Numbered from the stretch's first letter, positions 5,457 to 34,560 are shown. The stretch: 39,301 nucleotides of DNA from a virus (IMGVR_UViG_3300035698_017222:1-39301); one strand, 5' to 3'. The notes: generated from the sequence alone by a model not told the origin. Translations and numbers: made by a program.

Positions 5457-5729
5457 CTAAAAGTACTGGTCTATCCCAGACTGTGTTAGGCCACCTGACC
5501 CTAAGGGCATATGGTCACACTTATACGCAATGTGACCATCAGCGTGCACGTGGTTGCGCATCTGCTCTGATCCGTTCTGCAAAGTAGCCAACTGGAATTG
5601 CATCCTTTTGACTTCAGCTCGCATCCTCTCTACCTTCTGCTCTAGAGTAATTTCACTCCAGCTCACCGGCCGGCAGAGTTGCTTAGCAGTGTCGTCTGGT
5701 TGTTGAGGTACCGCTTGTTCTTCTGGCAT
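5457..5729 (-). CDS. small coiled-coil protein, unknown
   Basis: 90 residues. A Pro/Gln-rich N-terminus is followed by a predicted coiled coil around residues 28-55 (LEQKVERMRAEVKRMQFQLA). The C-terminus contains HVHADGHIAYKC, a His/Cys-rich patch that could bind metal. A strong ribosome site (AAAGGAG) supports it. It lies between the two structured non-coding intervals. No family recognised. Confidence 0.65.
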   Translation of the reverse strand: MPEEQAVPQQPDDTAKQLCRPVSWSEITLEQKVERMRAEVKRMQFQLATLQNGSEQMRNHVHADGHIAYKCDHMPLGSGGLTQSGIDQYF

Positions 5730-5873
5730 CTGTTTGTTCTCCTTTCTAAGAGAGCGCTCTGCAGACGTAGCCTATTTCAATCTACATATTCCAGCAGGTC
5801 GTAGTCCAAGGTTTACCACGTGGGTTTCCTCTTAGCTCATTGCTGCTGCAGAGCTTCTTCCGTTGGGCCAACA

Positions 5874-6050
5874 CTAGATGCCGGGCTGTCCCGTCGCAGC
5901 TGGATCGGGGGCATCAGGCGGTGCTACGGGTGCCGGAGGTGCCTCGGACGGTGCTACGACTGGAACGGGCGGTGCTACGGGGGCAGCGGGGGCAGCGGGT
6001 TCTGCCTGGGGCTCGGCTTGCGGTTGGTCCTGACCTTGATCTTCGCACAT
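5874..6050 (-). CDS. 58-residue Pro/Ala-rich protein
   Basis: Reads from an ATG at 6050 to TAG at 5874. It begins MCEDQGQDQPQ and continues as a low-complexity chain of VAPP, APPAP and PAAP blocks ending in GQPGI. AGAAGGGAG is well placed upstream. The local G/C richness comes from the Pro and Ala codons and differs sharply from the neighbours. It is probably an extended flexible or linker-like peptide. Similar Val/Pro/Ala linkers occur inside the zinc-finger protein at 33820-34560. Function unknown. The 5730-5873 stretch downstream has only short palindromes (for example AGAGCGCTCT). Confidence 0.6.
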   Translation of the reverse strand: MCEDQGQDQPQAEPQAEPAAPAAPVAPPVPVVAPSEAPPAPVAPPDAPDPAATGQPGI

Positions 6051-6228
6051 AGTTGTGCTCCCTTCTTGGAAAAAAGTGAAACGAAACAGTAAACGTTCAA
6101 CGAAGTCCGGCAGCTGGAGTCAAACCACCTAGAGGAACAAATGCAGCAATCAATCGCCAGGGTTGCCATGGCTCTACGAACTTGATCACTACTCCTCTCC
6201 AAAGTCCTGGACCGGCGTGAGTGTCGGT

Positions 6229-6332
6229 GACGGGAGAGGGATTCTAACCCTCAACACAATGCTCTAGAGAACTGTGCTTAACCCTCGACGGATATCCATC
6301 GATTAGCGCTTGTACTATTGAGCGCTCCCGCC
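6229..6332 (-). ncRNA. tRNA-like cloverleaf candidate A (non-canonical)
   Basis: On the minus strand a 7-bp closing stem GGCGGGA/TCCCGTC (one G-U) encloses four hairpins in class II tRNA order: a D-like arm (GCGCT/AGCGC), a central arm TCGAT-GGATATCC-GTCGA, a long arm GCACA/TGTGT, and a T-like arm GAGGG-TTAGAAT-CCCTC placed directly against the closing stem. The closing stem is followed by A, then CCG. It fails as a normal tRNA: about 104 nt, no 7-nt anticodon loop with U33, and the D-loop lacks GG. Confidence 0.35.
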
Positions 6333-6344
6333 ATAGTATTGGTG

Positions 6345-6434
6345 CACGAGGAAGGGCTCGCACCTTCTACATGTTGAACACTGGTACCAAAGTTCAACAG
6401 TTTTCTTATCTGTAAGAGACAATGGTCACTCGTG
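6345..6434 (-). ncRNA. tRNA-like cloverleaf candidate B (non-canonical)
   Basis: On the minus strand CACGAG/CTCGTG closes a three-hairpin junction: TCTTA-CAGA-TAAGA, an 8-bp stem TGTTGAAC/GTTCAACA with a 12-nt loop, and GAAGG-TGCGAGC-CCTTC, a 5-bp stem with a 7-nt loop placed like a T-arm. After the closing stem comes C, then ACCA, as at a tRNA 3' end. The middle arm is too long and no anticodon loop is recognisable, so a functional tRNA is unlikely. Confidence 0.35.
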
Positions 6435-6549
6435 GCAGATTTCAGCCTAACTTGGGCGCCTATAAGCTTACGTCCAACCGTCATCGTCCGCATCATCTCC
6501 AACAGACTCCACCTTATATTGTGGACCCGTACATAAGTTCATAAACCGT

Positions 6550-6582
6550 AGGCGCCCTAGAACCGAAACTAGAGCGCCTTTT
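6550..6582. terminator. hairpin after the DUF932-like gene
   Basis: Outer stem AGGCGC/GCGCCT and inner stem CTAG/CTAG around an 8-nt loop, starting about 10 nt past the stop at 6593. The T run (TTTT, 6579-6582) is on the plus strand side. On the minus strand the hairpin has no U tract and may act more as an RNA-stabilising or processing element. Confidence 0.45.
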
Positions 6583-6592
6583 AGCAGAAGGA

Positions 6593-7597
6593 CTAATTCG
6601 TCTGCTGTGGCAGACACTGGCTACAGCTAGAACATCTCGGCGTGTGATTGGCTACCAACGCCGTCATCACATTGCCCAGAGCTATCTGCGTCTGCTCTGC
6701 CTGCGACATGTCTCTAGCGATCTCCGTCAGCAAGTTGACGTAGTCGAACATAGTTGCATCCTGGGGAATCTCAGGTAGTCGTACCAGCGCTTTGTTGACA
6801 AAGTACTGAGGCAGTCGATGTTGCCGACCCAGCTGCACTAACAACTGTTCTCGGTTACCAACGATCGGCTTGTCATCCAAGGAGATCAAGTTCTCAGTGA
6901 GCTCCCTTGCTTGCGCGTGCTGCGCTTGCACCAGGTTACGGATGGCTGGCTTCAGGTTGATGATCTCCACTGCCTGGAACGCTTCGTACGCTCTCATAGC
7001 GCCATTCGTGCATACTAACCGTAGGTTGTACGCACCTATCTCCAACTGACCGTTCATCTTGATAGCCAATCCTGAACGAACGATGTCACCCTCGTGCTTC
7101 GGTCTCTCGAGCGTATGGTCACCAATGACTCGAAACTTCAGACTACCCTGGTCAACGATAAGTCCCTCGGTTAGACTACCGCCACCTAGCTCATCCGTGA
7201 CGATGTCATAGACTTCGTTCGGATCGATCCACGGCCCTCTGTCCTCCTGCACAGATGAGATGCCGTAGTGACTACCTGAAAGGCGCACACCTTCACCAGC
7301 TCGCTTACGCAGACAGTGTTGAAGGATGCTGTTCAAGAGTTCTTCGTTGCCTTCGAACTCCGGTAGCATGTCAACTGGCACACCCGTGATGCGTTTGAGC
7401 CCGTAGCGATCTAACACTGGGTAGGTGATGTCGTCGGCTTCTCGGCGAAGCCCTACAGTCGTGCCACGCACTTTTGGAATAGGCACAAGTTGCAGCTTGT
7501 GTACGTACGTATCCTCGTGCCAGAAGTTCATCCGGCCGAGTTTCTCCTTGCCTTGATCCAACGTATACAACTTCTTCTTCTTATCAGCCTCTGGCAT
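6593..7597 (-). CDS. DUF932-like phage protein
   Basis: 334 residues. The central part (about 155-235) has GLAIKMNGQLEIGAYNLRLVCTNGAM, which resembles the core of DUF932, a family common on phages and plasmids and of unknown role. The N-terminus is lysine-rich (EADKKKKLY). The C-terminal 20 residues carry a small Cys cluster (CSSCSQC). A strong ribosome site (AAAAGGAG) and a dedicated promoter at 7646-7677 point to a well-expressed, independently transcribed gene. The structured interval 6051-6592 follows it. A DNA-associated role is sometimes suggested by plasmid context for relatives, but nothing here tests that. Confidence 0.6.
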   Translation of the reverse strand: MPEADKKKKLYTLDQGKEKLGRMNFWHEDTYVHKLQLVPIPKVRGTTVGLRREADDITYPVLDRYGLKRITGVPVDMLPEFEGNEELLNSILQHCLRKRAGEGVRLSGSHYGISSVQEDRGPWIDPNEVYDIVTDELGGGSLTEGLIVDQGSLKFRVIGDHTLERPKHEGDIVRSGLAIKMNGQLEIGAYNLRLVCTNGAMRAYEAFQAVEIINLKPAIRNLVQAQHAQARELTENLISLDDKPIVGNREQLLVQLGRQHRLPQYFVNKALVRLPEIPQDATMFDYVNLLTEIARDMSQAEQTQIALGNVMTALVANHTPRCSSCSQCLPQQTN

Positions 7598-7705: not shown

Positions 7706-8134
7706 TCAAGAAGAAAGCTCCCAGCGGAACTGAAACTGATAATCTGTTGACTTTTGCTGCCCTGAGAAGGTAGCCCTAGCGAACAGTTTGCTACCAAAAG
7801 TGAGCAGACCAGCTTCAGTAATTCTAAAACCGTTTCCTTCTGCAGCTAAGAGATAAGCAGTTAGACGAACTAGATAGTTAGCATCTTCATACTCTACTGT
7901 AGCGAACGCCTTGACCGGATTAACTGGCGATTGCAAAGTAGTATCGCCAACTGCAGGAGTTGCTATGCCAGTACCAAACTGCATGTAGCGAAGGTATTTA
8001 GTGAGGCTACCACCAGTAAAGATATCTAACATCTCACCATAGCCTTGGTCAACAACTAAGTTGCTACTACGGATGATGTCTACCACCTGTAGATCGTCTG
8101 CTCTTTGGATTGTCAATTCAACCTGTCCGCGCAT
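7706..8134 (-). CDS. tail-fibre-associated domain protein (paralogue 1)
   Basis: About 142 residues, taking the ATG at 8134. An ATG at 8140 abuts the AAGGAG ribosome site too closely, while 8134 has 6-nt spacing. Motifs in order are SNLVVDQGYGEMLDIF, YMQFGTG-ATPAVGDT, EAGLLTFGSKLFARATFSG and a final FQFRWELS. This is the beta-rich pattern of a small domain often seen in phage tail or fibre proteins. The next gene upstream has the same motif order, so the two are tandem paralogues. They probably act as accessory tail or receptor-binding parts. Confidence in a structural role is moderate. Confidence 0.6.
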   Translation of the reverse strand: MRGQVELTIQRADDLQVVDIIRSSNLVVDQGYGEMLDIFTGGSLTKYLRYMQFGTGIATPAVGDTTLQSPVNPVKAFATVEYEDANYLVRLTAYLLAAEGNGFRITEAGLLTFGSKLFARATFSGQQKSTDYQFQFRWELSS

Positions 8135-8144
8135 AGTCATCTCC

Positions 8145-8642
8145 TTAGGGCCAAGTAAGTGTCCACGTAAGTGTCCACGTGAAGCTGCTACTCTTGATCA
8201 TAGCAGAAAAAGTTTGCCTAGCTACAAGCGCGTTGCTAGTCATCAGTAGGCCACACTCTTGGAAAGTGTTACCATTGCCAGAGCCAGCAGCTAGCGTACC
8301 TTGGAATTGTTTCACCTTATTGGGATCGCTTCCAGTAGGTGTAGCCGCGCTAGTGATAGCTACGTATACTGACCCGGCACCTGGAGCAGTCACACTGACG
8401 TCGCCAACGGCTGGTGCAGTGCCACTAGTACCAAGTTCGAATCTATCCATCTGGTAGGCAGTCCCGGGAAGACCGCTGCCGAGGGCGTGTAGCATATTGA
8501 CTCTGAAGGCACTGACAATTAGGTTAGACATCTCGCGCTTGTCCACCACATTGCCTTTGAGATCTTTGACCTCAATCAATACGTGCCCTTTGACTTTCTC
8601 TAGTTGATCGCTAAGTGGAAGCTTTTGCCGTTGCTTTTTCAT
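8145..8642 (-). CDS. tail-fibre-associated domain protein (paralogue 2)
   Basis: About 165 residues. I prefer the ATG at 8642 because GGAG stands 6 nt before it; an in-frame ATG at 8654 is the alternative. Its motifs parallel the neighbour at 7706-8134: SNLIVSAFR, RFELGTSGTAPAVGD, a Gly/Ser-rich turn, FQECGLLMTSNALVARQTFS. It ends in a repetitive FTWTLTWTLTWP, encoded by a 12-bp tandem repeat (GTAAGTGTCCAC on the plus strand). The start lies inside the 3' end of the glycosyltransferase gene, so translation is coupled. A small tail or fibre component is likely, and it is a possible substrate of the neighbouring modification enzymes (inference). Confidence 0.6.
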   Translation of the reverse strand: MKKQRQKLPLSDQLEKVKGHVLIEVKDLKGNVVDKREMSNLIVSAFRVNMLHALGSGLPGTAYQMDRFELGTSGTAPAVGDVSVTAPGAGSVYVAITSAATPTGSDPNKVKQFQGTLAAGSGNGNTFQECGLLMTSNALVARQTFSAMIKSSSFTWTLTWTLTWP

Positions 8643-9525
8643 CTTTAACTCCATGACGTTGTTTACTATACTCTAAAACTGCTCGCTCCGCTCCGTATCG
8701 CGTAGCTAAACTCTCGAAGAGAGCACAGTCAAAACCATCTACTTTTACTAACTCACCGCTATCGTGTCTCCTATAAGTGCAACGATAGAGCTGTCTATTC
8801 CACTGTGGTGTCCGCTCCATCTGATGAATAGTAGAACTGTTAGGCCCTATACCGAGATGTTGCACCTCATACGGTGGCCATACTCTATCATAATACTTGT
8901 AGCCTACTTGCCTAATTGCTTTGAACTGTGTGTCGGCAAAGCCACCTTTGACCACAGCAAAATGATTACCCGTTTTCAAAGCAACTGCTTTGTGGAAGAG
9001 AACATTAGCTTCGCCAGTGATCTCTAACTCAGCGAATACTTTACCACGCGTTGACAGATGCCCGCGTTGGGAGCATATGCCATGCAGAGTCAACGCACCT
9101 ATCTTAGCGTAATCAGTACTTCGAAGAAACTCGTAGTCGTCGATAGCTTCTTTGATAACTAACGGTGAGACTAAGACATCGTCATCTTTGAAGAACAAGT
9201 AGTCGTACTGATCCTTCTGTAAAAACAGATCCATTGCTCTAAACCGTAGAAGGGCTAGTCGCATAGCTCGATCATGATAAGTCCCTCGAGGTAATGTACT
9301 CTCGACACTGATTATGTTCTCTACGATCGACTCTACGTCGCCAGTGCCAGGATTTCTCACCGCGTTTCTTAGCGGTCGCAGATACTCATGGGTATCAGCA
9401 TCAGTACTACAATCATCCAACACTAAAAGTGAGAAATCCTCCGGCCAGTCCTGTAACAAGAAGTCAGTACATGCTCTAAGCAAGTTGGGTCGGTTATGCG
9501 TAAAGAGTGCTACCAATACTTTCAT
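8611..9525 (-). CDS. GT2-type (GT-A fold) glycosyltransferase
   Basis: 304 residues. The N-terminus VLVALFTHNRPNLLRAC, then LLVLDDCSTD, is the nucleotide-sugar binding start of family 2 transferases. A FKDDDVLV motif near residue 117 supplies the metal-binding DxD. The C-terminal half (KYYDRVWPPYEVQHLGIGPN) would carry acceptor specificity. It transfers a sugar to an unknown acceptor. The lysine-rich tail (KDEKATAKAST) overlaps the next gene. A promoter-like motif at 9528-9546 sits directly against the ATG and there is no good ribosome site, so the message may be leaderless. Lying between tail genes and beside a GT9 enzyme, it may glycosylate a tail protein or modify host surface sugar (inference). 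Confidence 0.82.
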   Translation of the reverse strand: MKVLVALFTHNRPNLLRACTDFLLQDWPEDFSLLVLDDCSTDADTHEYLRPLRNAVRNPGTGDVESIVENIISVESTLPRGTYHDRAMRLALLRFRAMDLFLQKDQYDYLFFKDDDVLVSPLVIKEAIDDYEFLRSTDYAKIGALTLHGICSQRGHLSTRGKVFAELEITGEANVLFHKAVALKTGNHFAVVKGGFADTQFKAIRQVGYKYYDRVWPPYEVQHLGIGPNSSTIHQMERTPQWNRQLYRCTYRRHDSGELVKVDGFDCALFESLATRYGAERAVLEYSKQRHGVKDEKATAKAST

Positions 9526-9527
9526 TA

Positions 9528-9546
9528 TATATTATAGCTCACTATC
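9528..9546 (-). promoter_or_regulatory. third copy of the promoter-like motif, abutting the GT2-type gene
   Basis: Minus strand GATAGTGAGCTATAATATA. It shares GATAGT, a 4-nt gap, then TATAATATA with the copy at 11895-11914. The TATAAT lies only 6 nt before the ATG at 9525, so transcription would start at or near the start codon. It overlaps the 3' end of the GT9 gene. Confidence 0.4.
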
Positions 9547-10482
9547 AACTAAAGCAAAATGCCTCTGAACCGCTTCTGTGATCTCATCGACTGTGATACT
9601 CAGCATCCTTTCACAACCAGTTGTCCGACAAATCTTATTCCAACCCTTCGCAGTATTGTAGTTGCACGCTATCGGACACTTCGTTCCGTGACCTTCTAGA
9701 GTTGAATGCTCTGTGTAAGAAGCATCTGCCGCACCTCCGTCAGTTGGCCCGAAGATTCCTATCGCTGGCGTGTTCACTGCTGCAGCTAGATGGAACAAGA
9801 AGCTATCTACAGTAAGCACTAGATCGCACTGAAACACTGACTCAGCAACCTGCGGCACAGTCTTGCCAACACCTAACTCAACACCATCAGGTACCCGAAA
9901 GCCTGGTAGCACACAATCATAGTAGTAGACTTCGTACTTCTGATCAATCAACTCTTTCAGAACGTCAGTGCACTTATCAAAAGGTAGACACCTAGCTGCA
10001 CACGTTGCTCGAAACTGTACACCAATCCGTCTACGCGGTCTCTCATCAACTGATACTCCATGCTTGAAGTTCCAATGTGGCCGGGCGTTAGCAACGTTAC
10101 TTACGCCAGCTGCCATAGCAAACAGCTGCGATCGGCTAAACTCTAAGCTCGACGGATGGGTACTCTCATATAAGTAACCCGGGCAAAAAAGGTCGATCCA
10201 CTTTGCATCTGGATACTTCGTCAACGGCATAAGGTACGGTACCTTTTCAGGGTCTAACGGATCGTCTCGCCGCCGTCTCACAGGCTGTATATCTCGCAGC
10301 TTACCAAGAGACACCAATTCATCTACTCCGATAAGATGAGAAGCTATCTCAAGGAACTCTGCTGGGAGAAGTGCAACCACTACACTCTCCGGCTGCTCCT
10401 TTTTGAGTCGGTGTGCTGGCGACCCGATGGACGTCAGTATATCGCCCAGGCCACCCGCTTCTCTGACGAGGCAGTAAATCAT
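9532..10482 (-). CDS. GT9-type (heptosyltransferase-like) glycosyltransferase
   Basis: 316 residues of the ADP-heptose:LPS heptosyltransferase type (GT-B fold). The N-terminal glycine loop is AGGLGDILTS (residues 9-18). The C-terminal donor-site signature is DSFLFHLAAAVNTPAIGIFGPTDG near residues 228-251. Several added Cys occur near the C-terminus (KCPIACNYN, ICRTTGCER). Relatives add heptose or related sugars to bacterial surface glycans; in a phage the acceptor could be a virion protein or host LPS. The start at 10482 is required by the family-typical N-terminus and has a GGAG site 9 nt upstream. It lies 134 bp inside the radical SAM gene, an unusually long overlap. Confidence 0.83.
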   Translation of the reverse strand: MIYCLVREAGGLGDILTSIGSPAHRLKKEQPESVVVALLPAEFLEIASHLIGVDELVSLGKLRDIQPVRRRRDDPLDPEKVPYLMPLTKYPDAKWIDLFCPGYLYESTHPSSLEFSRSQLFAMAAGVSNVANARPHWNFKHGVSVDERPRRRIGVQFRATCAARCLPFDKCTDVLKELIDQKYEVYYYDCVLPGFRVPDGVELGVGKTVPQVAESVFQCDLVLTVDSFLFHLAAAVNTPAIGIFGPTDGGAADASYTEHSTLEGHGTKCPIACNYNTAKGWNKICRTTGCERMLSITVDEITEAVQRHFALVDSEL

Positions 10483-11872
10483 TTATAGATACTCCAGCTG
10501 GTTGATTGAGTGCGTCCTGTGCGGGTTTACGCTGCAATGCCTTTGGCATAGGCACTAATGCCTTCAACTCCTCAAGACTCAACTCAGACATAACCCAAGC
10601 CGAGGTATCGAAGAAGATTCTCCTAAGCTTACAAGCCGCGTCAAACGGTACACGTATATCTTTATTCTCGTTCAAGCTTTCTTCTCTACATCCTGAACCA
10701 CACACGTAACGGATAGGGCACTGCATACAACTTTCTCTTAGATAACCTCTATTGTCCTTCCACTTCGCCTGCAGTGCGTCGTCAACGCCACCCTTATGTA
10801 TGTTACCAATGGCGCCAGAAGACTCGCGATGACACGGAAAGATGTCGCCTGAGGAGTTGACCGACAAGTAACCCACACCAGCGCCGCACTCAGTAAAATA
10901 TGGCAACCCCCAAAGGATACGCTCGATGGTCTTCGTGATGTTATGGAACACTGGCCGCTTACCAGCCTTGACTTGAGCTACAAACCAATCACCAACTTCA
11001 GCGTAAGCCTTTCCGAGTTCCTGTATATCTACATCAGTAATGCCATGGCGAGCCTGCGAAGGATCAAAACACATACTCTCAGTTAGGAACGCCGGTTCAA
11101 CTGATACCCAATGAGCAAACCCGCTCTCCACCAGGGTATTGAGAAAAGCCACACTCTTTACTAGAGATGAACCAGTCTCCGGTGTATAGGTAGCTCTAAG
11201 CGTTATTCTAGGCCCTAATCCGGCCTTGTGGAGATGCATAAGTCCGCGCATTACGTCAGAGAAGGTACCCTTACCGTTTTTGTACGTTCTGTTGGTGTTA
11301 TGTACTTCTTCAGGTCCGTCTAGCGAAACTATCACAGTATAGTTATGTTCGCTAAGAAACTTCGCCTTAGCTTCATCTATAGCGGCTGCGTTGGTAGTAA
11401 CGTGAAAGTGCGGTTTCCGAGGGTGAGCCAAACCTTCGAAGTATAACGTCAGTTCCATCATCAACTTCCAATTCAACAACGGTTCGCCGCCGAAGAAGCC
11501 GATAGACGCTTTCTGCAAAGCCTGCTCATCTGGAAACAATAGATGGATGGCTTCCTTAGCTGTTTCCAAAGTGAGCATATCTATGCCTGGATAATACTGC
11601 TGGACCATACAGTACTTGCACGCGAACTGGCAGGCATGGCACGCCTCCATCACAAGGTATGCAGGTTGCGTGAGAGGGTAGTAAGGGAACACAGGTTTGT
11701 ACTTCACACCTTCGTACACAACTTTGACTTCTTCATCATCCATGAGAAACAAAGCGTTTGAGTTAGTATCGAAAGCGAACCTCTTACCCCGCACATCAAA
11801 ATGCATCACATCACAATGGTCAGTAGGTATGATACGATGTTTTGGAGTAGTATCCGCACTAAGTAACTGCAT
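10349..11872 (-). CDS. radical SAM/SPASM peptide-modifying enzyme
   Basis: 507 residues. An N-terminal beta domain (MHFDVRGKRFAFDTNSNALF) precedes the core, as in thioether-forming peptide maturases. The radical SAM cluster motif is C81-x3-C85-x2-C88 in CQFACKYC. GFFGGEPLL follows (the GGE motif). Conserved Cys at FTECGAG and FPCHRE and the SPASM motif CMQCPIRYVCGSGC near residues 381-395 would bind auxiliary iron-sulfur clusters. SPASM enzymes modify Cys or other side chains in peptides. Close likenesses I can name are maturases of six-Cys and CXXX-repeat peptides. The gene has its own promoter (11895-11914) and an AAAGG site, and sits next to tail proteins rich in C-x3-C repeats, the probable substrates (inference). 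The last 45 residues overlap the GT9 gene. Confidence 0.9.
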   Translation of the reverse strand: MQLLSADTTPKHRIIPTDHCDVMHFDVRGKRFAFDTNSNALFLMDDEEVKVVYEGVKYKPVFPYYPLTQPAYLVMEACHACQFACKYCMVQQYYPGIDMLTLETAKEAIHLLFPDEQALQKASIGFFGGEPLLNWKLMMELTLYFEGLAHPRKPHFHVTTNAAAIDEAKAKFLSEHNYTVIVSLDGPEEVHNTNRTYKNGKGTFSDVMRGLMHLHKAGLGPRITLRATYTPETGSSLVKSVAFLNTLVESGFAHWVSVEPAFLTESMCFDPSQARHGITDVDIQELGKAYAEVGDWFVAQVKAGKRPVFHNITKTIERILWGLPYFTECGAGVGYLSVNSSGDIFPCHRESSGAIGNIHKGGVDDALQAKWKDNRGYLRESCMQCPIRYVCGSGCREESLNENKDIRVPFDAACKLRRIFFDTSAWVMSELSLEELKALVPMPKALQRKPAQDALNQPAGVSINDLLPRQRSGWPGRYTDVHRVASTPTQKGAAGECSGCTSPSRVP

Positions 11873-11894
11873 GAAAAACCTTTCTGTTGGTTAC

Positions 11895-11914
11895 TATATT
11901 ATATGATACTATCG
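11895..11914 (-). promoter_or_regulatory. promoter with conserved phage motif, upstream of the radical SAM gene
   Basis: Minus strand CGATAGTATCATATAATATA, differing from the copy at 7646-7665 at one position. The TATAAT (11903-11898) would place the transcript start about 20 nt before the ATG at 11872. No good -35 element is visible at 17 nt, so the extended shared motif itself may be what is recognised, possibly by a phage factor. Confidence 0.6.
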
Positions 11915-11934
11915 AGCAAAGTTGTAACCCAAAA

Positions 11935-12396
11935 TCACCATTTGCGTCTAGGACAATGATAATTCTCATACTTCCACTTCTCTAGCAGCATACAGCCGCA
12001 ACCTTTCTTGAGCTTAGACTCTTTAGTGATACGTATTCCTTGAGTGATAGGTTTACCACACCAAGAGCCAGTTTTATCCACCCTATACAATTCACAAGAT
12101 TTACAAGCAGCTTGCCTGTAGGCAAGTAGCTCCTCACTAACCCGCACCTTTCCGAATGCCCTGCCAATAGCAGCGGAACCAGCTCGTAGAATTTTGCTAC
12201 CTGCTCCGCCACTAGCAACCTTGCGAGGTAGTGGTAAAGGAGTGGTCTTATCAGTGTCTCGCTTCTTGAAGAATGCTTGAATCCACTCTTCGCCATTCTG
12301 CTGACAGTTGGCACAATGATCTCCGTTTGTGTAAGCTGAGAACTTGCTACACCAACCCCATTTTCCCTTAGATGTCAAATGCTTACAACTCATCAT
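11935..12396 (-). CDS. Cys-rich, putative zinc-binding phage protein
   Basis: 153 residues with two Cys clusters. The N-terminal one is CKHL...WGWCSKF...HCANCQQNGEEW. The C-terminal one is ACKSCELYRVDKTGSWCGKP, then GCGCMLLEKWK and a closing CPRRKW. The C-terminal layout (CxxC, C, CGC, C-P-x-x-KW) is one I associate with small phage proteins of unknown function. The middle is a basic, glycine-rich linker. Its ATG overlaps the stop of the large Cys-rich structural gene (TAATG), so the two are translationally coupled. It could be an assembly factor for the tail tip or an iron-sulfur or zinc donor for the enzyme next door; neither can be tested from sequence. Confidence 0.65.
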   Translation of the reverse strand: MMSCKHLTSKGKWGWCSKFSAYTNGDHCANCQQNGEEWIQAFFKKRDTDKTTPLPLPRKVASGGAGSKILRAGSAAIGRAFGKVRVSEELLAYRQAACKSCELYRVDKTGSWCGKPITQGIRITKESKLKKGCGCMLLEKWKYENYHCPRRKW

Positions 12397-14036
12397 TAAC
12401 CTGCAGTAAAAGTAACTGAACCACCTTCAGCACAATCTTCCCAATGATCTGGATCGCCAGCCACACCATCGTGCGTGTGTGCACAATCATTATCGTTATT
12501 CATTGATGGAGGATTATCACAAGAGTATTGTGCAGTTGTATCTGTACCATAAAAAACACTATGAGTATCCTCATCTTGCCGGCAATGCCAATTCAAACCA
12601 GAGATACCAGAGTCGGATTTTCTATGTCTGAAATCAATTATCTTGGCACTAAATATCCAATCAGTTATATTGACTCCACCATCAGAGGCACGTAATCCTA
12701 AAATCCAAAACCACCCACCACAATTTAGATAATCAACTCCCCCACTCATCCCAGTTACAGATATGGCAACATCAGATTTTGTAATAGCAACATTTCCAAC
12801 AGTACCCAAAACTTTATGTATGAGATTGCAAACGTTGTCCGGTGGTTCCGAAGCTATCGGAATTATATTCAAATCTGCCGCTCTTATAGCAGCAATTAAA
12901 TTCACAATTGTGTCTTCTTTAGTTGCACCAATAGTTACAAGAATGTTGTCGTCTACTACAGATCCAGTGTTATCAAACTCGAAAACTACTGCTGGATTGT
13001 CACCATCAGCTATTGTTACAGTATCTTTATCAACCGGTTGGTCAACAAGTGTTACAGTTCCTTTCGCAAATGCGCCTTGTACATCGTGAACGGCGTGATA
13101 CCGACTAGTCCACGAACAGGAATAACGTGCCACCATAACTATTCCAGCAGGATCTTCCATGTCCTCAATTGCTGCGGCTACAATATCTTTACGAGTACAA
13201 CCAGCGCAGGCTGCTAAGCTACCAGTAATTTTTGCTGTCATAGTTGCTGGAGTATCAAGTACACCGGTACCCCAAGACACTATGGATTTACCATGCTCTG
13301 CCCCTTCTGGAATAATCCCGCCAGCACAAACTGAGTCATTCCATATTGTGACTGTTTCGTCAGAACAATACGGACGGTCAGCACCAGTAGCAAGACCGGT
13401 AAACAAAGTGTACGTGCCTGGGCAAATACACGCAGGGATTTGCGGTGGAAAAGATATGTAGGCTCTGATTACCCATTCACCCGTTCCATAAGTTCCGTTG
13501 CCATAGGAAACGCGCAACTGAATCAATAGTGTGTAATCGCAACCGTCCACGGTTTTATTTTCATTATAGTACCAAATACAGTATTTATTTCCTGCAATGT
13601 TACCGCCAAACGCCAAATCAAACTTATCGTTTAATTCTACCGCGGCCCAATTATCCTCGATCCATTGACGGCAAGCATCGCCACCGGGCGCGCAAGCGGT
13701 CACGCCACTAAACGTCACCTCCATTGGCTCAAAATCACCACTACCATCATCTTTCATATTAAATGAAGCATCTTGTAGCCCAGTTATCTCACCAGTATAA
13801 GGATCAACATCAGTTGAATTACACCAACAATCACACCGCTCGCATTCTACGCAGCAATGCTGTACATACCGACAACCGCGTTGCAATTTAGTTGTGTCAG
13901 GGATCGGACAAGGTCCAGGAGACAATAAGTAATAGTAACCATTAGCATCACCAGTACAAGGAGCACCAAATGGTGTGCTTTGATACCTCTTGAAACAAAA
14001 AGAAACAAAATCAGTAAAGGCTGTTCGTACACTCAT
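12396..14036 (-). CDS. large Cys-rich tail tip or fibre protein
   Basis: 546 residues. Near residue 55 there is a dense Cys patch, CRYVQHCCVECERCDCWC. The middle is beta-rich with scattered Cys. At about residues 320-425 there is a module read as TVTLVDQPVDKDTVTIADGD, then VVFEF, IGATKEDTIVNLIAAI and a closing SVTGMSGG, which is common in phage tail fibre and baseplate proteins. The C-terminus (WHCRQDEDTH...CDNPPSMN...CAHTHDG) is Cys/His-rich. It overlaps both neighbours by TAATG junctions, placing it in one unit with the gpI-like proteins. Base composition is more A/T-rich than its neighbours. A receptor-contacting tip protein is likely, but no exact family is recognised. Confidence 0.65.
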   Translation of the reverse strand: MSVRTAFTDFVSFCFKRYQSTPFGAPCTGDANGYYYLLSPGPCPIPDTTKLQRGCRYVQHCCVECERCDCWCNSTDVDPYTGEITGLQDASFNMKDDGSGDFEPMEVTFSGVTACAPGGDACRQWIEDNWAAVELNDKFDLAFGGNIAGNKYCIWYYNENKTVDGCDYTLLIQLRVSYGNGTYGTGEWVIRAYISFPPQIPACICPGTYTLFTGLATGADRPYCSDETVTIWNDSVCAGGIIPEGAEHGKSIVSWGTGVLDTPATMTAKITGSLAACAGCTRKDIVAAAIEDMEDPAGIVMVARYSCSWTSRYHAVHDVQGAFAKGTVTLVDQPVDKDTVTIADGDNPAVVFEFDNTGSVVDDNILVTIGATKEDTIVNLIAAIRAADLNIIPIASEPPDNVCNLIHKVLGTVGNVAITKSDVAISVTGMSGGVDYLNCGGWFWILGLRASDGGVNITDWIFSAKIIDFRHRKSDSGISGLNWHCRQDEDTHSVFYGTDTTAQYSCDNPPSMNNDNDCAHTHDGVAGDPDHWEDCAEGGSVTFTAG

Positions 14037-16495
14037 TAGGTATCACACACAATGGGTTCCATAGACTCGCCGCCTAGGATGCCTCTCTCGGTATAACTTC
14101 CGTCAGCATAATCTACAACCACTCCTACATAACTTCCTACCAGCATAGGATGCCAACGAACACTGGCAGACCTTCTTTCCAAACATTGTATTTTTGTTGG
14201 ACTTCCCCATGTACCACCAGCCGAGTCTATGTATATTCCAGAATAAGTATGCCTGGAAGGTGGGCCATATACTTCACTAACTCCAGTGATTCTACCTGGA
14301 CGTATACCACCGCCAGCGGATTGCAGCGCACTATACAGCGGATCGTCAGTCTCAGCAGTCTCGTTGAGATAGAGAGTCACACCATCTATAGATTGGTAAG
14401 TCTCTAAAAGGGAGTACCGACACTCACGCTCTTTGCAGTAGTAAACAGTAATGACTGCTCCGTTAGGCGGCGGTTGCCTAAACGTAACGGCGAAGTCCAT
14501 AGAAGGGTTGCGATGGTTAACTCTATTGTAAGTGACATCTACATCTGGGTCCACATCACCGTCAAGTCGGCCGTACCAAGTATCGTCATCTACCGGCTCA
14601 AGCATCTCACAAACAAGAGCGGCCTGTTTCTTCTCAGGACGGAAAACAACGATCGGTTGACCATACGTTGCAGTATAGTCGTGGAGAAACGATTGCTTGA
14701 AGTACAAGTGGTGTGTACCACCGTGGTCATCTATGTCGTTGATGTAGTTTACTTCGTAAGCTGACTCATCGTAGATGATTACTTCATCACCTACGTTGAA
14801 CGGGGCGGCATCGTCAACTTCAGCAGAATTCCTACCTTCATCTAGTGAGCCATAGAGGATACCAGTATACTCAGAGAGTTTAGCTTCAATCCGAACACTG
14901 CACGGATGCGGTCTAAAAGAGAGGCTGCCACCTTCGGAATACAAGCCACCCTCACCCCAGTCTGCTAAGAAGTCAGCAGGCATAGTACCGCCAGTCCATA
15001 ACTTGTTGAAGCCGTTGCCTAAGACAGAATGCTCCTCGTAGAATTCTATGCCGCGAACGCAGCGAGACCACAACCAGTCTTCGTTAAGCATATTTAATCT
15101 ATCTTCAGTCGTCTGCCCCAAAGCTGGTACTAAAGTCTCCTCCCAAAAAGAACCATTACCGATGATATCACATTGAAGCACTATCTCTGGGTAAGCAGCC
15201 CATGGGGCTACTGGATCAGCAGCATACTCCGGCGTGATCCACCAAGCATTAGTAAGCGAAGACGTACTACCAGCGACTGGTGTAGGTGGAAAAGTAGATG
15301 CTGGATGAGGGTACCAAACTCGCCCCATCAATTGAACAGGGTCACCATTAGCATCTTCCTCTTCAGCAGGATCAGCCACACCCCAAATCTCTACAGGGTA
15401 GAGGTCAATCTCATTACAACACTCACAAGAAGCTTGACAAGAACCGTATTGACAACTGCCGTGTTGGCAAGCTGCTTCACATGACCACCTACACGCAGGT
15501 ATATCAACTTCTGCGCTAGTCTGACACCAACTCTGACAAACAATCTGGCAAGATAGCATGCAGCTAAGTTCGCAGAAGCCTTGGCAAGCTCCTTCCTCAC
15601 AAGCACTCAAACAAGTAACTATGACGTCAATAGCATCGTCAAGAGGTCCGATAAAGTCGTCCCAGTGCCAACCCTCTTGATACAACTGGCAAGTAGCTTG
15701 ACAAGCTACTTCACAAGCAGCTGCTTCACAGGACGCCTCACAAGCAGATTCGCAAGTTGACTGACAAGCAGATTCGCAAGTTGACAAACAAGGGGAAACG
15801 TTAATAGTCAACTGATCCGTCGGTAAAGCTACCGTATCCTCTAACAGATGATCTCTAAAGTTACGGCGTAGCAAGACATGGATTGGCCGCACGGGTCCGA
15901 TGTACTCTAGAAGCTCTTCACCTTCAGCCGGTGTGAGAAAGACTGGCGAACCATCTACATTATAGTAGAAGTCAAATCTAGCCGATTTGAGAAGATGTGT
16001 GTAATCTAAGTATCGAGAATAGTCACCTAACTCATAAGGGATAGTCTTCCACAGTTCCCAAGCGCCCCGCCAGAAACCATACAACCTTCGGAATTGGAAG
16101 TCCCACGAAGGATGAGTACCCTTGATCCTGTAGAAAGCTACCAAGTTGCGAGTGAACCATCGCTGAAAGTCTACTCCGAGAGATGGTTCTTCACCAACTA
16201 GAGTTCCTAAAGTGGCCGAGAGATAGAGCAAGTATTCTGGATCACAAGCGTCCACATCTAAGATAGACGCTAACCCAGAGATCTCACTTTGAGTAATGCA
16301 AGTCTCTTGCTCGAGGGCGTAGACGATCTTCTTGAGATGACCTTCTACAACCGTAGCATCTTGCTCACCTTGAGCGAGAGCATCCATATAACGGATGATC
16401 AAAGGTAGAAGCGAATACAGATCCAACCCGCATACGCTACCAATCTCAAAGGTCGTCTCGCAACCTATTTCACATGTAGACCCGCAAGTAACCAT
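14036..16495 (-). CDS. P2 gpI-like baseplate/tail protein with C-x3-C arrays (long paralogue)
   Basis: 819 residues. Residues 25-225 match the layout of P2 gpI-type tail proteins (YSLLPLIIRYMDAL, LKKIVYALEQE, DACDPEYLLYLSATLG, AFYRIKGTHPSWDFQ, GPVRPIHVLLR). Cys arrays follow: nine Cys at residues 236-269 and sixteen at 295-360, nearly all four residues apart, plus C4, C8, C12 and C22 at the N-terminus. The remaining 450 residues are beta-rich with no repeats and could form a baseplate-to-fibre adaptor. It is a clear paralogue of 16504-17574. The start at 16495 has AGGA 6 nt upstream. It is the best candidate substrate of the radical SAM enzyme together with its paralogue. Intracellular disulfides or metal binding are alternatives. 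Confidence 0.8.
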   Translation of the reverse strand: MVTCGSTCEIGCETTFEIGSVCGLDLYSLLPLIIRYMDALAQGEQDATVVEGHLKKIVYALEQETCITQSEISGLASILDVDACDPEYLLYLSATLGTLVGEEPSLGVDFQRWFTRNLVAFYRIKGTHPSWDFQFRRLYGFWRGAWELWKTIPYELGDYSRYLDYTHLLKSARFDFYYNVDGSPVFLTPAEGEELLEYIGPVRPIHVLLRRNFRDHLLEDTVALPTDQLTINVSPCLSTCESACQSTCESACEASCEAAACEVACQATCQLYQEGWHWDDFIGPLDDAIDVIVTCLSACEEGACQGFCELSCMLSCQIVCQSWCQTSAEVDIPACRWSCEAACQHGSCQYGSCQASCECCNEIDLYPVEIWGVADPAEEEDANGDPVQLMGRVWYPHPASTFPPTPVAGSTSSLTNAWWITPEYAADPVAPWAAYPEIVLQCDIIGNGSFWEETLVPALGQTTEDRLNMLNEDWLWSRCVRGIEFYEEHSVLGNGFNKLWTGGTMPADFLADWGEGGLYSEGGSLSFRPHPCSVRIEAKLSEYTGILYGSLDEGRNSAEVDDAAPFNVGDEVIIYDESAYEVNYINDIDDHGGTHHLYFKQSFLHDYTATYGQPIVVFRPEKKQAALVCEMLEPVDDDTWYGRLDGDVDPDVDVTYNRVNHRNPSMDFAVTFRQPPPNGAVITVYYCKERECRYSLLETYQSIDGVTLYLNETAETDDPLYSALQSAGGGIRPGRITGVSEVYGPPSRHTYSGIYIDSAGGTWGSPTKIQCLERRSASVRWHPMLVGSYVGVVVDYADGSYTERGILGGESMEPIVCDT
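15416..15613 (-). repeat. C-x3-C array 2 in the long gpI-like protein
   Basis: 66 codons (residues 295-360) encode 16 Cys, mostly in C-x-x-x units such as CELSCMLSCQIVCQSWCQ, with three 5-residue spacings and one 11-residue gap. The array ends in CECC. Confidence 0.9.
15689..15790 (-). repeat. C-x3-C array 1 in the long gpI-like protein
   Basis: 34 codons (residues 236-269) encode nine Cys at spacings 4,4,4,4,4,5,4,4, in units such as CESACQSTCESACEASCE. Part of the DNA is a direct repeat (GCAGATTCGCAAGTTGAC on the plus strand occurs twice), pointing to recent unit duplication. Confidence 0.92.
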
Positions 16496-16503
16496 ACGCT
16501 ATC

Positions 16504-17574
16504 CTAGAATACAACAAACTCAGCTATCACTTGACAAGAACCTTCGCACATTGTCTCACAACCTACTTCACAACTAGTCTCACAACTCAACTCACAACCA
16601 GTCTGGCATAATACTTCACAAGTAAACTCACACGACAACTGACAAGTCAACTGACAAGAAGTGAGACAGCCTGATTCTGCGTAAGTGCCACAGACCGTCT
16701 CGGAATACTCTTGGCACGAAGTCTCACAACCACCGAGGCACTCATACTCTTCTATCGATTGGCAAGATGCCTCACAGTAACCAACGCAAGCGAGGGCAAT
16801 AGTCAAAGTATCAACTAAAGCTACTGGAGCGTCTTCGAAAGCCGCACTAGCGTCTAGACTCACAGAGTCGGTAGGTAAGTCAACTGAGGCCGCTAAATCA
16901 GAATCGATCGGGTCGCCAAATGGGCGCAAGAGTACATGAATTGGACGAACTGGTTCAACTACCTCAATACGCTCTTGCGATGCAGTAATAGATGCACGAG
17001 CGTCTGGATCACCAGGGAGGGTAAAGTCGACTCTGGCAGCACGAAGGCCAGTGTAGTAACCAGGATCGGTAAAGTAATTGTAACGCTCATAGATGATCGA
17101 CTTATACAACTCCCAAGCAGAGTAATCATTGAGCCCTTGTAAACGTAGTAATGCATCCCAAGACTTCTGGAGACCTTTGACCATCCATACTAACACAACT
17201 GACTTCACGACCATGTGCTTCTTAGCATCCGGCCAGTCCAATAAAGTGTTCCAACAGACAGCATTCGCCATCAATGGTAAGACAGCAGATGGACACGCCT
17301 CGGGATTGACTAAATCTACTAGAGCTTCAATCTGCTGTTTCTCTAGCAAACACTCTTGTTCTAAAGCATAGCAAATCTTCTTAAGGATAGACTCTTGAGT
17401 GTCTGTCTCCTCTACTAAACCACTAGCGAGAAGACTTTGCGTCTGCATGATAAGCGGAAACAGATGGTAGAGATCTACTGATTGCGCTAACGCATCTGGT
17501 GGAAAATGTCCAACATGGAAGTGGTATAACGGTACATGACCGACAGGGATATTTCCGAAAGGCCAAGTAGCCAT
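16504..17574 (-). CDS. P2 gpI-like baseplate/tail protein with a 19-Cys array (short paralogue)
   Basis: 356 residues. Residues 28-235 form a gpI-like domain (LYHLFPLIMQTQ, LKKICYALEQE, PEACPSAVLPLMANAV, VKGLQKSWDALL, EPVRPIHVLLRP), with the same motifs in the same order as the 819-residue neighbour. The C-terminal quarter is an extreme repeat: 19 Cys from residue 263 to 347, every interval exactly 4 or 8 residues. The chain ends AEFVVF soon after. P2 gpI-type proteins sit at the baseplate rim and help attach tail fibres, so the array would be on or near the virion surface. It lies upstream of the radical SAM gene in the same direction. No strong ribosome site is visible (GAGAAG only). Confidence 0.8.
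   Translation of the reverse strand: MATWPFGNIPVGHVPLYHFHVGHFPPDALAQSVDLYHLFPLIMQTQSLLASGLVEETDTQESILKKICYALEQECLLEKQQIEALVDLVNPEACPSAVLPLMANAVCWNTLLDWPDAKKHMVVKSVVLVWMVKGLQKSWDALLRLQGLNDYSAWELYKSIIYERYNYFTDPGYYTGLRAARVDFTLPGDPDARASITASQERIEVVEPVRPIHVLLRPFGDPIDSDLAASVDLPTDSVSLDASAAFEDAPVALVDTLTIALACVGYCEASCQSIEEYECLGGCETSCQEYSETVCGTYAESGCLTSCQLTCQLSCEFTCEVLCQTGCELSCETSCEVGCETMCEGSCQVIAEFVVF
16534..16788 (-). repeat. 19-Cys tetrapeptide array (C-x-x-x)
   Basis: 85 codons encode 19 Cys. Fifteen intervals are 4 residues and three are 8, so all Cys share one register. Typical units are CQLT, CQLS, CEFT, CELS, CETS. The residue after Cys is usually Glu or Gln and the one before the next Cys is often Ser, Thr or Gly. 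Confidence 0.95.
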
Positions 17575-19053: not shown

Positions 19054-21072
19054 TTACTCCGTTTGAGTAGCTATAGTGTATCTACCCTTCACTGCCAGTT
19101 GCGTCTTGTTGATTGGTATATCCTCACTCGGGGTCTCTAGCTTCTGCATATACGCAGCCCAGAGACTTGTACCATTCGCAGGGGTAGCAGCGAAAGTGAA
19201 GTCAAAGGATCCAGTATCGTAATCGATAATGTTTGCACCTGACGCAAGTACATCTCCCGCAAGATCACCATCACCATCGTCCGTGACTACTTGAGTGCCA
19301 TCTGTGAAAGCAATTCCCTTGAAGCCCGTAAGGGTATCATAAGGTACTGCAGGCGGATAAGTTAGGGCACCTCTCATCCGTGCGGTAGTACCATCGGTCG
19401 TGAGCACTACCTCATTCCTAACGTAATCAATGACGTGCCTGTGTGAAACAGAAATCGAAGCCGCTAGTGCTGGGGCTGCTGCGAAGGTTACACTCACGTC
19501 ACCAGTTTCGTAATCTACTGTACCAGTGCCATCTCTAGTGAGACCACCACTGCCATCGTCAGTGACTACTTGAGTACCATCTGTGATGATGACAGTAAAC
19601 GGTACAATCTCTAACCCTGGCTCAAGCTCAAGTGTAAATGCAAAGAGCATAGTAGCTGCATCACCAGTGTCGACTGTCTCAGAAGTCAAGTAAGAAGCCG
19701 TTAGGTTATTGATAACAGCGTGTTCTACCCCGGTGGTATCTTGTATAGCGTCGTAGATCCTACTGATTCTAACTGCCGCGCCAGGAATAGCATTCGGAGA
19801 AGTAAACAACACATCTAACGCATCACTTACAGAGTCGCTTACTGTAGCAGCCGCGTATAAGCTAGAGATGGTCACAGTAATATCGACGTCAATGTAAACG
19901 CTGTAGCCATCGAGCACTTCAACGTCAGTACAGATGATACGTACTGCACCTTCACCGTTGTTGTTGAAGTAATCTTCAAGTGCTTGCTTTAGTACCGTCG
20001 TTGGCGTAACGATAGCATCAGAAGAGTCTCTAGCCCAAGTGTAGATGTCAACGGTATTCAGCTCAGGAATCTCTTGGCGCAACTTGGCCTTAGCAAAAGC
20101 AAAAGCGCCATACACAGGATCAACAAAAGCAGTAGCCAAAGTATCGAAGTCTTGCTCCGTCACAGCCCTACCATTAGTAGCTACCCATCTGGGAGCCCAG
20201 TACTTAGCGTGTTCGATTGTCTCCCTCTCTTCACCACCACCACCTCTATAGACATCGTTAGCTAACGCTACCTGCACTGAGGTAGAAGGAAAAGCATCTG
20301 TGTTGCCGGTAATAGTCGTGTCGATTCCACTCAAGACGATGTTACCACTTATACCACCACCGACTCTATACGTGACGGCTATGACACTACTTACCGGTGG
20401 TGCCTGTCCGTTGGTACCATCACCAAACTCAATGTAAGCATAATCATCTTCATCGTAAGAAACTGTATAGACCTCGGAAGATGCGCTAGCTAAAACTAAC
20501 GAATCAATAGCTGACCAAGTAGTGCCGCCAACAACTACTGCTACTGAGCCAGCTATCACTTCAGCATCCGTCAATTTATGCTTCTGAAAGTTACTGCCAT
20601 CACCAGTGAAAGAGTCATCGTGCAGCTCACCCTCAACGAAAACAATCTCAGCTGTCAGATCTCCAGCTGGTATGCGCTGCTCTACTAAAGTTCGAAAAGT
20701 GACTCCGCTAGCTGAAGTAACTGTAGTGCTTACTGGGATCAAGATATCAGTCGCCTGCAAAGCTGGTAGTATAGCAGTACACGTTACAGAAGCACTTGTA
20801 GCAGTGCGCAACTGATAACCGATCAGCTTGCAGAGATTAACTATCGATAGTCTATCTCTAGCTGTAGGCAAGAAGCTTTCGTTTGCTTGGTAGTCGAGGT
20901 AGTAGCTTAGAATATCATACACGTAAGCTACTAACTCAAGCCAAGCTACACCCATATTCGACTCGTAGAAGTCCCGCCAAGTATTCGGAAACTTAGCTTG
21001 TATGTGCGATTTTAGCGCAAGCTTGATCGAATCGAAGTCCCGGTTAGTATAATCTATCTTTGGCGCAGCCAT
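19054..21072 (-). CDS. baseplate J-like (wedge) protein
   Basis: 672 residues. The N-terminus DYTNRDFDSIKLALKSHIQA, then WLELVAYVYDILSYYLDYQA and LCKLIGYQL, is the typical start of J/gp6-like baseplate wedge proteins. The central GRAVTEQDFDTLA and C-terminal VYIDVDITVTI segments fit the family core. Two copies of a module, DGTQVVTDDG followed by a DYxTG turn and a TFAA strand, occur near residues 480-550 and 590-655, and a third copy is inside the major capsid protein. J-like proteins form the wedge ring of contractile tails. It is preceded by AGGAG and followed at short spacing by periphery proteins. Confidence 0.9.
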   Translation of the reverse strand: MAAPKIDYTNRDFDSIKLALKSHIQAKFPNTWRDFYESNMGVAWLELVAYVYDILSYYLDYQANESFLPTARDRLSIVNLCKLIGYQLRTATSASVTCTAILPALQATDILIPVSTTVTSASGVTFRTLVEQRIPAGDLTAEIVFVEGELHDDSFTGDGSNFQKHKLTDAEVIAGSVAVVVGGTTWSAIDSLVLASASSEVYTVSYDEDDYAYIEFGDGTNGQAPPVSSVIAVTYRVGGGISGNIVLSGIDTTITGNTDAFPSTSVQVALANDVYRGGGGEERETIEHAKYWAPRWVATNGRAVTEQDFDTLATAFVDPVYGAFAFAKAKLRQEIPELNTVDIYTWARDSSDAIVTPTTVLKQALEDYFNNNGEGAVRIICTDVEVLDGYSVYIDVDITVTISSLYAAATVSDSVSDALDVLFTSPNAIPGAAVRISRIYDAIQDTTGVEHAVINNLTASYLTSETVDTGDAATMLFAFTLELEPGLEIVPFTVIITDGTQVVTDDGSGGLTRDGTGTVDYETGDVSVTFAAAPALAASISVSHRHVIDYVRNEVVLTTDGTTARMRGALTYPPAVPYDTLTGFKGIAFTDGTQVVTDDGDGDLAGDVLASGANIIDYDTGSFDFTFAATPANGTSLWAAYMQKLETPSEDIPINKTQLAVKGRYTIATQTE

Positions 21073-33819: not shown

Positions 33820-34560
33820 TCATGAAGATGGATGCTCTTTTGCGATATGCTGGTCTAGATGGTATTTTGCACTAGATTTATACTGCCTATCACAGTGAGG
33901 GCATTGCAGCGGTGTGCCAGTCTCTTCTGTCATTCCAGTAGAAGGTGGTGAAGCTTCAGCTACTTCAACAGGAGCGGCTACTTCAACAGGAGCGGCTACT
34001 TCAACAGGAGCGGCTACTTCAACAGGAGCAGCTACTTCAACAGGAGCAGCTACTACTCCAACAGGCGGAGCTACTTCAACAGTTGGTGCAACCTGTGGTA
34101 GTGGCCTTCCATGCAACTTTTGTTGCTGCAGTTTCTGTTGAGTAGTGACATCAATAGGCATCTTATGGTAAGTGCGTATGTGATTGTCGAAAGCAATCTT
34201 CGAGCCGGTGCGGAACATATCACAATGACAACAGTGATAGATGCCCGCTTTCTTAACATAATCGTGTGTGACTTCATCAGCTGCACCTTGCAGCTCAGAT
34301 AGCAAAGGTGGAGCAACTGGTGTACGTTGCTGTGCTTTACTGATGACTGGTGTGCGTGCTTGTGCGGCATGAGAGGGTGTAAGAGGCCGAGGTTTGGAAG
34401 GGTCAACTGACACAGGCACTCGCGTCAAGTTGCGTGGGCCACAAAAACGGCTAAACCAAGGATCCGTTGAACCGTGGCCAGGTGCGAATGTCACTTGATG
34501 GCCCTGCTTACCAGAGACCATCACGGGGAAGGGATTCTGATTGACGTAACGGTACTGCAT
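33820..34560 (-). CDS. C2H2 zinc-finger protein with repetitive linker
   Basis: 246 residues. Residues 1-48 (YVNQNPFPVMVSGKQG, STDPWFSRFCG) match the chimeric gene at 2312-2770. Two C2H2-type fingers are visible: YHCCHCDMF then HIRTYH near residue 108, and LQCPHCDRQY then HIAKEH near the C-terminus. Between them lies a Val-Pro-Glu-Ala linker made by an 18-bp DNA repeat. It directly follows the capsid gene, past a terminator, with its own AAAGGAG site. It could be a capsid-binding or DNA-binding head component. C2H2 fingers of this classical spacing are uncommon in phages. Confidence 0.78.
   Translation of the reverse strand: MQYRYVNQNPFPVMVSGKQGHQVTFAPGHGSTDPWFSRFCGPRNLTRVPVSVDPSKPRPLTPSHAAQARTPVISKAQQRTPVAPPLLSELQGAADEVTHDYVKKAGIYHCCHCDMFRTGSKIAFDNHIRTYHKMPIDVTTQQKLQQQKLHGRPLPQVAPTVEVAPPVGVVAAPVEVAAPVEVAAPVEVAAPVEVAAPVEVAEASPPSTGMTEETGTPLQCPHCDRQYKSSAKYHLDQHIAKEHPSS
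33959..34048 (-). repeat. five tandem 18-bp units in the zinc-finger gene
   Basis: Plus-strand unit GCTACTTCAACAGGAGCG, five copies (the last two end in A), encoding PVEVAA repeats. Length variation among relatives is likely. Confidence 0.95.

Follow-up and report, generated by a model that had tools for sequence, protein, structure and literature searches.

Among the closest described systems, PapB joins Cys to Asp or Glu, with 0–6 residues between them (PMC9413430), and the substrate Cys is bound at an auxiliary cluster of the enzyme (PMC10470005). In another example, QhpD makes three thioethers between Cys and Asp or Glu within a protein subunit (PMC7876137). The locus described here places an enzyme with radical SAM and SPASM motifs in a phage tail region, where it is tightly, and in other phages repeatedly, linked to genes for proteins with arrays of cysteines.

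Organization of the locus

The window (the whole stretch of DNA that was analysed) is a viral record, 39,301 bases long. All of its genes lie on the minus strand, where they include a contractile-tail gene order. The features of the locus are as follows.

10349–11872, minus strand: radical SAM/SPASM enzyme, putative maturase, 507 aa (Pfam, NCBIfam, motifs, 17 relatives, AlphaFold model)
11609–11632, 11480–11491 and 10688–10729, minus strand: enzyme motif sites, respectively CX3CX2C, GGEP and SPASM CxxC-x5-CxxxC
16504–17574, minus strand: gpI-like baseplate protein 1, 356 aa, with a C-terminal Cys array (array statistics, TIGR01634, model core, aligned gpI-like relatives)
16534–16668, 16714–16740 and 16762–16788: Cys runs of gpI-like baseplate protein 1
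14036–16495, minus strand: gpI-like baseplate protein 2, 819 aa, with a central Cys array (array statistics, homologues)
15728–15790, 15689–15715, 15524–15586 and 15467–15493: central Cys runs of gpI-like baseplate protein 2
16460–16486: small N-terminal Cys run of gpI-like baseplate protein 2
19054–21072, minus strand: baseplate J/wedge protein, marker of the tail locus (phrog_219, E 4e-44)
9532–10482, minus strand: GT9-family glycosyltransferase, probable accessory (Pfam PF01075, E 5e-11; homologues in 16 related loci)
8611–9525, minus strand: GT2-like glycosyltransferase, probable accessory (Pfam PF00535, E 5e-6; homologues in 14 related loci)
12396–14036, minus strand: Cys-rich protein (27 Cys) between the array proteins and the enzyme, membership uncertain
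11935–12396, minus strand: Cys-rich protein of 153 aa before the enzyme, membership uncertain (weak phrog_13558 match)

In the window, the genes with the C-x3 arrays lie upstream of the enzyme, at distances of 2.2 and 4.6 kb; in relatives the array is mostly adjacent to it. As a preliminary description of this DNA had reported, the enzyme and array genes run in the same direction. The protein at 12396–14036, put forward there as a Cys-rich tip protein, does contain 27 Cys but has no C-x3-C runs, and it has zero homologues in related loci or near the arrays of relatives. The protein at 11935–12396 also has zero homologues in related loci. A promoter belonging to the enzyme gene itself had been claimed as well, and this could not be upheld: the promoter scan found 14 promoter-like sites against 13.8 expected by chance, which is no excess.

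Around the relatives of the window a recurrent order is found, namely J, gpI array, gpI array, enzyme, GT9, GT2 and two small proteins, and the positions of GT9 just downstream of the enzyme and of GT2 downstream of GT9 are conserved in the window's clade. Glyco_transf_9 was considered as a general partner of arrays and rejected, being present in only 3 of 21 array records; glycosylation would thus be at most a local addition.

Cysteine arrays in gpI-like tail proteins

The numbers of arrayed Cys given earlier for the two gpI-like proteins, 19 and 25, are exact. The protein at 16504–17574 has exactly 19 in its C-terminal 101 residues, and that at 14036–16495 has 25 in residues 231–370. Their C-x3-C regularity is far above that of shuffled sequences, with 15 and 16 CxxxC pairs, respectively, against means of 3.3 and 4.2 and maxima of 10 and 11 in 20,000 shuffles. 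At the DNA level, a nine-Cys C-x3-C pattern occurs four times in the window and in none of 100 shuffles. The Cys codons of the arrays are a mixture of TGT and TGC and tandem repeats are short and weak, so the regularity lies at the level of the protein, which points to selection on the protein and not to a young DNA repeat. Glu or Gln directly follows 34 of the 44 array Cys in the two proteins, with an array consensus of C-[E/Q]-[T/S/V]-[G/S/A/T]. In a set of 67 array proteins encoded at related loci, the first spacer position is Glu in 46% and Gln in 36%, and the later positions are Thr/Ser/Val and then Gly/Ser/Ala/Thr.

Several comparisons are consistent with a baseplate identity for these proteins. 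The protein at 16504–17574 matches TIGR01634 (tail_P2_I) with E 7e-5 and a score of 22.7, below the cut-off of 30.05, and the PF09684 (gpI) match in the window likewise stays below its cut-off (17.3 versus 20.6). In relatives, TIGR02242 is matched by 12 array proteins and PF09684 by 9 (E <= 0.01). The gpI-like core of the 16504–17574 protein, modelled with a pLDDT of ∼75, gives weak but consistent matches to baseplate chains of phi812, Mu, pyocin R2, and others, and the layout of the 14036–16495 protein is shared by homologues at loci L404, L396, L394 and L414. The array part of the structure model is unreliable (pLDDT mostly < 60), and helical structure matches were set aside as hits to a common arrangement. 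A search for a comparison set of gpI proteins without arrays returned only array-bearing relatives plus one truncated locus.

A radical SAM enzyme with a SPASM domain

All the motifs attributed to the enzyme in the preliminary description were confirmed: CX3CX2C at residue 81 (CQFACKYC), GGEP at 128, and the SPASM CxxC-x5-CxxxC at residue 382 (CMQCPIRYVCGSGC). The Pfam Radical_SAM model (PF04055) is matched at 59.7 bits, passing the cut-off of 29.5, and the SPASM model (PF13186) at 20.2 bits (E 7.5e-4), just under the cut-off of 21.5. Across 17 relatives the cluster cysteines, including those of CX3CX2C, are invariant or nearly so, and this extends to the SPASM cysteines for two auxiliary clusters (C329, C347, C382, C385, C391, C395, and C414). 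In relative L391 two inteins lie within the SPASM region of the enzyme, each of which, as read from the sequence, stops just ahead of a cluster Cys.

The AlphaFold model of the enzyme (pLDDT 82) has the predicted fold of a thioether-forming SPASM enzyme, and its top PDB matches are the CteB structures 5WHY and 5WGG (TM 0.66–0.67 / 0.77–0.78). CteB is also the closest solved protein by sequence (E 6e-39). The N-terminal beta region of the enzyme, which may be part of a peptide-recognition (RRE-like) domain, aligns with CteB residues 9–33 and is missing from several relatives. The NCBIfam ranking places PapB, a Nif11 maturase, the SCIFF maturase, and QhpD first, each far under its cut-off: 183.8 bits versus 340 for PapB (NF047865, E 5e-54), 170.1 versus 425 for the SCIFF maturase (TIGR03974), and 164.1 versus 453 for QhpD (TIGR03906). 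No curated NCBIfam subfamily cut-off was reached by the enzyme. Thus, of the kinship proposed earlier with the six-Cys (SCIFF) and CXXX-repeat families, the first part stands to the extent that the SCIFF maturase is among the closest models; the score for the CXXX-repeat radical SAM maturase (TIGR04115) is 57.9 bits against a cut-off of 350.

Linkage of enzyme and array in other phages

Searches with single sequences found one relative of the window's enzyme and none of its gpI protein, so alignments were needed. An alignment of the enzymes recovered 80 viral loci, 78 of which were analysed. An ORF with a C-x3-C-x3-C-x3-C array is present in 37 of these 78, always on the strand of the enzyme, and a Cys-dense ORF (8 or more Cys per 40 residues, at most 6 kb from the enzyme) is present in 55. 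Cys-dense ORFs make up 69 of 732 on the same strand versus 0 of 161 on the opposite strand; tail genes tend to share direction, so this bias is not decisive by itself. Where the enzyme is at least 32% identical to that of the window, nearly all loci have arrays, and in the window's clade neither an array without the enzyme nor the reverse was found where the DNA sufficed.

Arrays were not found at 18 labelled enzyme loci, several of them ended by contig ends, and for three array-negative loci the array is present elsewhere in the record, outside the fetched stretch. The DNA upstream of the enzyme extends for just 1.2 kb at L412 and 0.3 kb at L413; L412 has long exact stretches in common with the array-bearing L433, and the half of this phage that carries the array is represented by L561. 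At L428 the array is short and C-terminal. Other Cys patterns are found beside the enzyme at some loci, such as CxxC rows at L435 and CxC-N rows at L445, L451, L453, and L482. Four loci that were read from gut ‘phage’ records with similar enzymes have no arrays, and these enzymes are probably host maturases. The enzymes of array phages are diverse (21–50% identity), so that a single chemistry for all of them is not assured. Their clades may go with the flavour of the array (15 tree changes against a shuffle mean of 19.7, with 1 of 500 shuffles as low), a result that is suggestive only, because the enzyme tree is poorly resolved.

The linkage can also be followed from array to enzyme. Millions of virus fragments in IMG/VR were scanned with a DNA pattern of five consecutive C[E/Q]xx units, which was adopted because matches of a generic nine-Cys pattern over viral contigs, since rejected, were mostly antisense or low-complexity repeats. 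Records were kept when the array lay inside a convincing ORF; these ORFs were picked by eye and chosen before any enzyme search, and L032 alone was taken from the broader nine-Cys scan. A radical SAM match is present in 17 of 22 array records (15 over the cut-off), which are not fully independent, compared with 1 of 50 controls, which were drawn from these scans as records with an antisense or low-complexity pattern and are a background sample, not a matched one (Fisher p = 3e-11). Leaving out L032, the count is 16 of 21. This test and the 55 of 78 loci found in the reverse direction bear out the co-occurrence proposed for related phages. In most array records the enzyme and array ORFs share a strand and touch or lie within ∼1.5 kb of each other, and in G002 one array is flanked by several radical SAM ORFs. 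Four of the five non-matching records are fragmentary (7.9 to 17 kb), with the arrays of three reaching the contig end, and in the remaining one a divergent CX3CX2C ORF lies 0.9 kb upstream.

Two backbones allow array-bearing and array-less loci to be compared. In the array protein of L477 the array forms the N-terminal part and is combined with Ig-like repeats. Its homologues in phages nd12 and nd4 and in two Faecalibacterium phages, Mushu and Brigit, have no array. In those fully read, another domain occupies the N terminus and the gene directly upstream encodes a reverse transcriptase. A radical SAM gene was found in none of six complete array-less isolate genomes of this fibre family. A scan with the fibre backbone gave 48 loci. 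In all three with an array, the gene directly upstream is that of the enzyme and a reverse transcriptase is absent, whereas the enzyme is present in 0 of 45 without an array, 20 of which have a DGR-type reverse transcriptase at that place. Since the query had itself been built with the three array-bearing records, the new evidence here is the count of 0 in 45. With the baseplate J protein as query, 80 loci were recovered, and arrays are present in all eight close relatives (47–57% identity), with J preceding the array proteins in each. The fetched stretch contains the enzyme in four of these eight and is cut by contig ends in three others; at L564 the enzyme of the contig lies further on (L419). 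No enzyme was found in the 72 array-less J loci. Two marine-type loci have irregular Cys-rich proteins in the tail region and no enzyme within the fetched stretch.

A proposed maturation of tail proteins

By their linkage, the enzyme and the array are close to established as one functional unit. The enzyme very likely modifies the array, its presumed substrate, and by analogy it likely makes thioethers. We consider it probable that it is a phage protein maturase that acts on the adjacent gpI-like arrays, with thioether cross-links as the probable product. Thioethers are the leading chemistry because of the kinship with PapB, CteB, and QhpD in models, structures, and papers, and it is on this analogy that the residues thought to be joined, and the ‘oxidation-proof scaffold’ suggested earlier, would rest.

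In the proposed mechanism, the enzyme would act on the Cys arrays of both gpI-like proteins before or during tail assembly. A 5'-deoxyadenosyl radical would be generated at the CX3CX2C cluster, as in the nearest characterised relatives, while the substrate Cys would be held at the SPASM auxiliary cluster. The Cys sulfur would then be joined to a nearby carbon with the loss of 2 Da per link. The likeliest acceptor would be the conserved Glu/Gln after the Cys or a neighbouring Thr/Ser; given the frequent Gln, it cannot be just a carboxylate in every repeat, and since PapB needs a carboxylate, Gln arrays would need another acceptor. In an exposed region of the tail, free or disulfide Cys would thereby give way to small rings arranged in a chain, a product that in the window's clade may be further decorated by the two glycosyltransferases. 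The modification may serve tail stability or host contact.

The same Glu/Gln alternation leaves some room for arrays that are modified otherwise, by epimerisation, C–C or C–O cross-linking, or methylation of Glu/Gln or Ser/Thr, with the Cys serving for metal binding or disulfides. SPASM enzymes perform several chemistries and the best models come from different families, all below their cut-offs. We nevertheless regard this as unlikely: thioether formation is common to all of the nearest models and structures (PapB, SCIFF/CteB, QhpD), and no other feature of the arrays is as regular as Cys. It is more doubtful still, to the point of being quite improbable, that the arrays are metal or disulfide modules and the enzyme targets a glycan or another small protein, linked to them only through a shared exchangeable tail cassette. 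The glycosyltransferases adjoining the enzyme in the window's clade and the enzyme-less stretches of the two marine-type loci would fit such a role, but most array records have the enzyme without a glycosyltransferase, and the enzyme follows the array though the rest of the virion protein and the neighbourhood change. Finally, a host-derived metabolic or defence gene (a sulfatase maturase, viperin-like, or RiPP enzyme) lying near the tail by chance is scarcely credible, for although radical SAM genes are known in other phage contexts and the array-less gut ‘phage’ records have similar enzymes, the two-way co-occurrence and the conserved order J–gpI–gpI–enzyme–GT9–GT2 argue against it.

The pairing of maturase and array in many unrelated phages points to an apparently undescribed chemical hardening or shaping of tails. 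A broader proposal, which we see as evenly balanced, is that radical SAM/SPASM enzymes and Cys-array modules form widespread exchangeable virion cassettes, with enzyme clades matching Cys spacings, and that they occupy the place in the fibre that DGR-diversified receptor-binding domains take elsewhere. This would be a general type of virion maturation, so far undescribed, with cross-linked peptide arrays making up the tip that contacts the host. A stiff receptor-contacting tip is considered here, besides stability outside the cell, because the array exchanges with DGR modules. If the proposal is correct, RiPP-type radical chemistry belongs to the assembly of virus particles, with a phage enzyme rewiring its own tail proteins; there would be a large natural stock of cross-linking enzymes that take big folded substrates, and a new type of exchangeable tail-tip module alongside lectins and DGR domains. 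Full-text literature searches, in which subscription papers were mostly uncovered and which are therefore weak evidence, found no phage tail proteins matured in this way.

Comparison with known systems

To our knowledge, the targets of CXXX-repeat systems have not been described as phage tail proteins. These systems (TIGR04115, with targets TIGR04114/04117) resemble the present locus in that the enzyme adjoins a C-x-x-x repeat protein, and single array proteins match the target models weakly. CteB, the SCIFF maturase (5WGG, 5WHY), is the closest structure by sequence and fold, with an alignment that takes in an N-terminal beta region, whereas SCIFF is a small six-Cys clostridial peptide. PapB, a ranthipeptide maturase, is likewise a radical SAM enzyme with a SPASM domain, and its substrate, a Cys/acidic-repeat peptide, is encoded beside it (PMC9413430, PMC10470005). 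PapA is, however, a short peptide with CX3D, while the putative target here is a tail protein of several hundred residues with C-[E/Q] repeats. QhpD is a SPASM enzyme that installs thioethers in QhpC, which is part of an actual protein complex (PMC7876137), although this complex is a periplasmic dehydrogenase, and QhpC has a cleaved leader and is not a virion protein. The DGR fibres of Faecalibacterium phages share the Ig-like backbone of the array-bearing fibres, and in both cases the module at the N terminus is exchangeable and is directly preceded by a gene for an enzyme. In the DGR fibres this module is a variable domain paired with a reverse transcriptase, and in the array-bearing fibres it is a Cys array paired with a radical SAM enzyme.

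Cysteine arrays and radical SAM enzymes in related loci

Ahead of the array, the N-terminal regions of the array proteins from seven viral loci (L393, L402, L438, L442, L448, L452 and L462) have a leader-like motif in common, (I/L)P-x-(F/Y)L, which is possibly a recognition sequence. Cysteine arrays of types other than C-x3-C, comprising CxxC rows and CxC-N rows, adjoin related radical SAM enzymes in four loci:

L435:8749-9843
L445:16963-18825
L453:7189-8040
L482:7611-8830

A CxxC row is also present at the start of the L435 enzyme itself, and in L386 (8132-13981) a single short array protein is surrounded by four radical SAM genes. The enzyme of L391 (10169-12706, minus strand) contains two inteins (PF14890, two stretches), each ending immediately before a cysteine of the SPASM cluster.

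Irregular Cys-rich tail-region proteins of the CGVCGG type occur in the marine-type loci L582 (10056-12796) and L587 (12008-17338), with no radical SAM enzyme within the fetched stretch of either, so a high Cys content is not by itself a predictor of the enzyme.

Possible module exchange and a possible gene copy

In L506, L507 and L508 the Ig-like fibre backbone is accompanied by a Cys array and a radical SAM enzyme. The same backbone is found in L509-L518 and L524-L529, but with a different N-terminal domain and a reverse transcriptase of the diversity-generating retroelement type, as if cassettes had been exchanged.

Part of the window's 34673-36115 protein, close to its C-terminus (WIWHKESLYDAL...TATQRRQGNW), recurs in a 152 aa ORF (2312-2770) whose start resembles the 33820-34560 protein. 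This ORF looks like a truncated, shuffled copy.

An isolated phage

Achromobacter phage 2-1 (L495), an isolated phage, encodes:

5643-7082, phrog_1802 radical SAM gene, located behind the tail hub
7791-9146, tail-fibre-like protein, with CNCDCNCSC followed directly by a Hint domain
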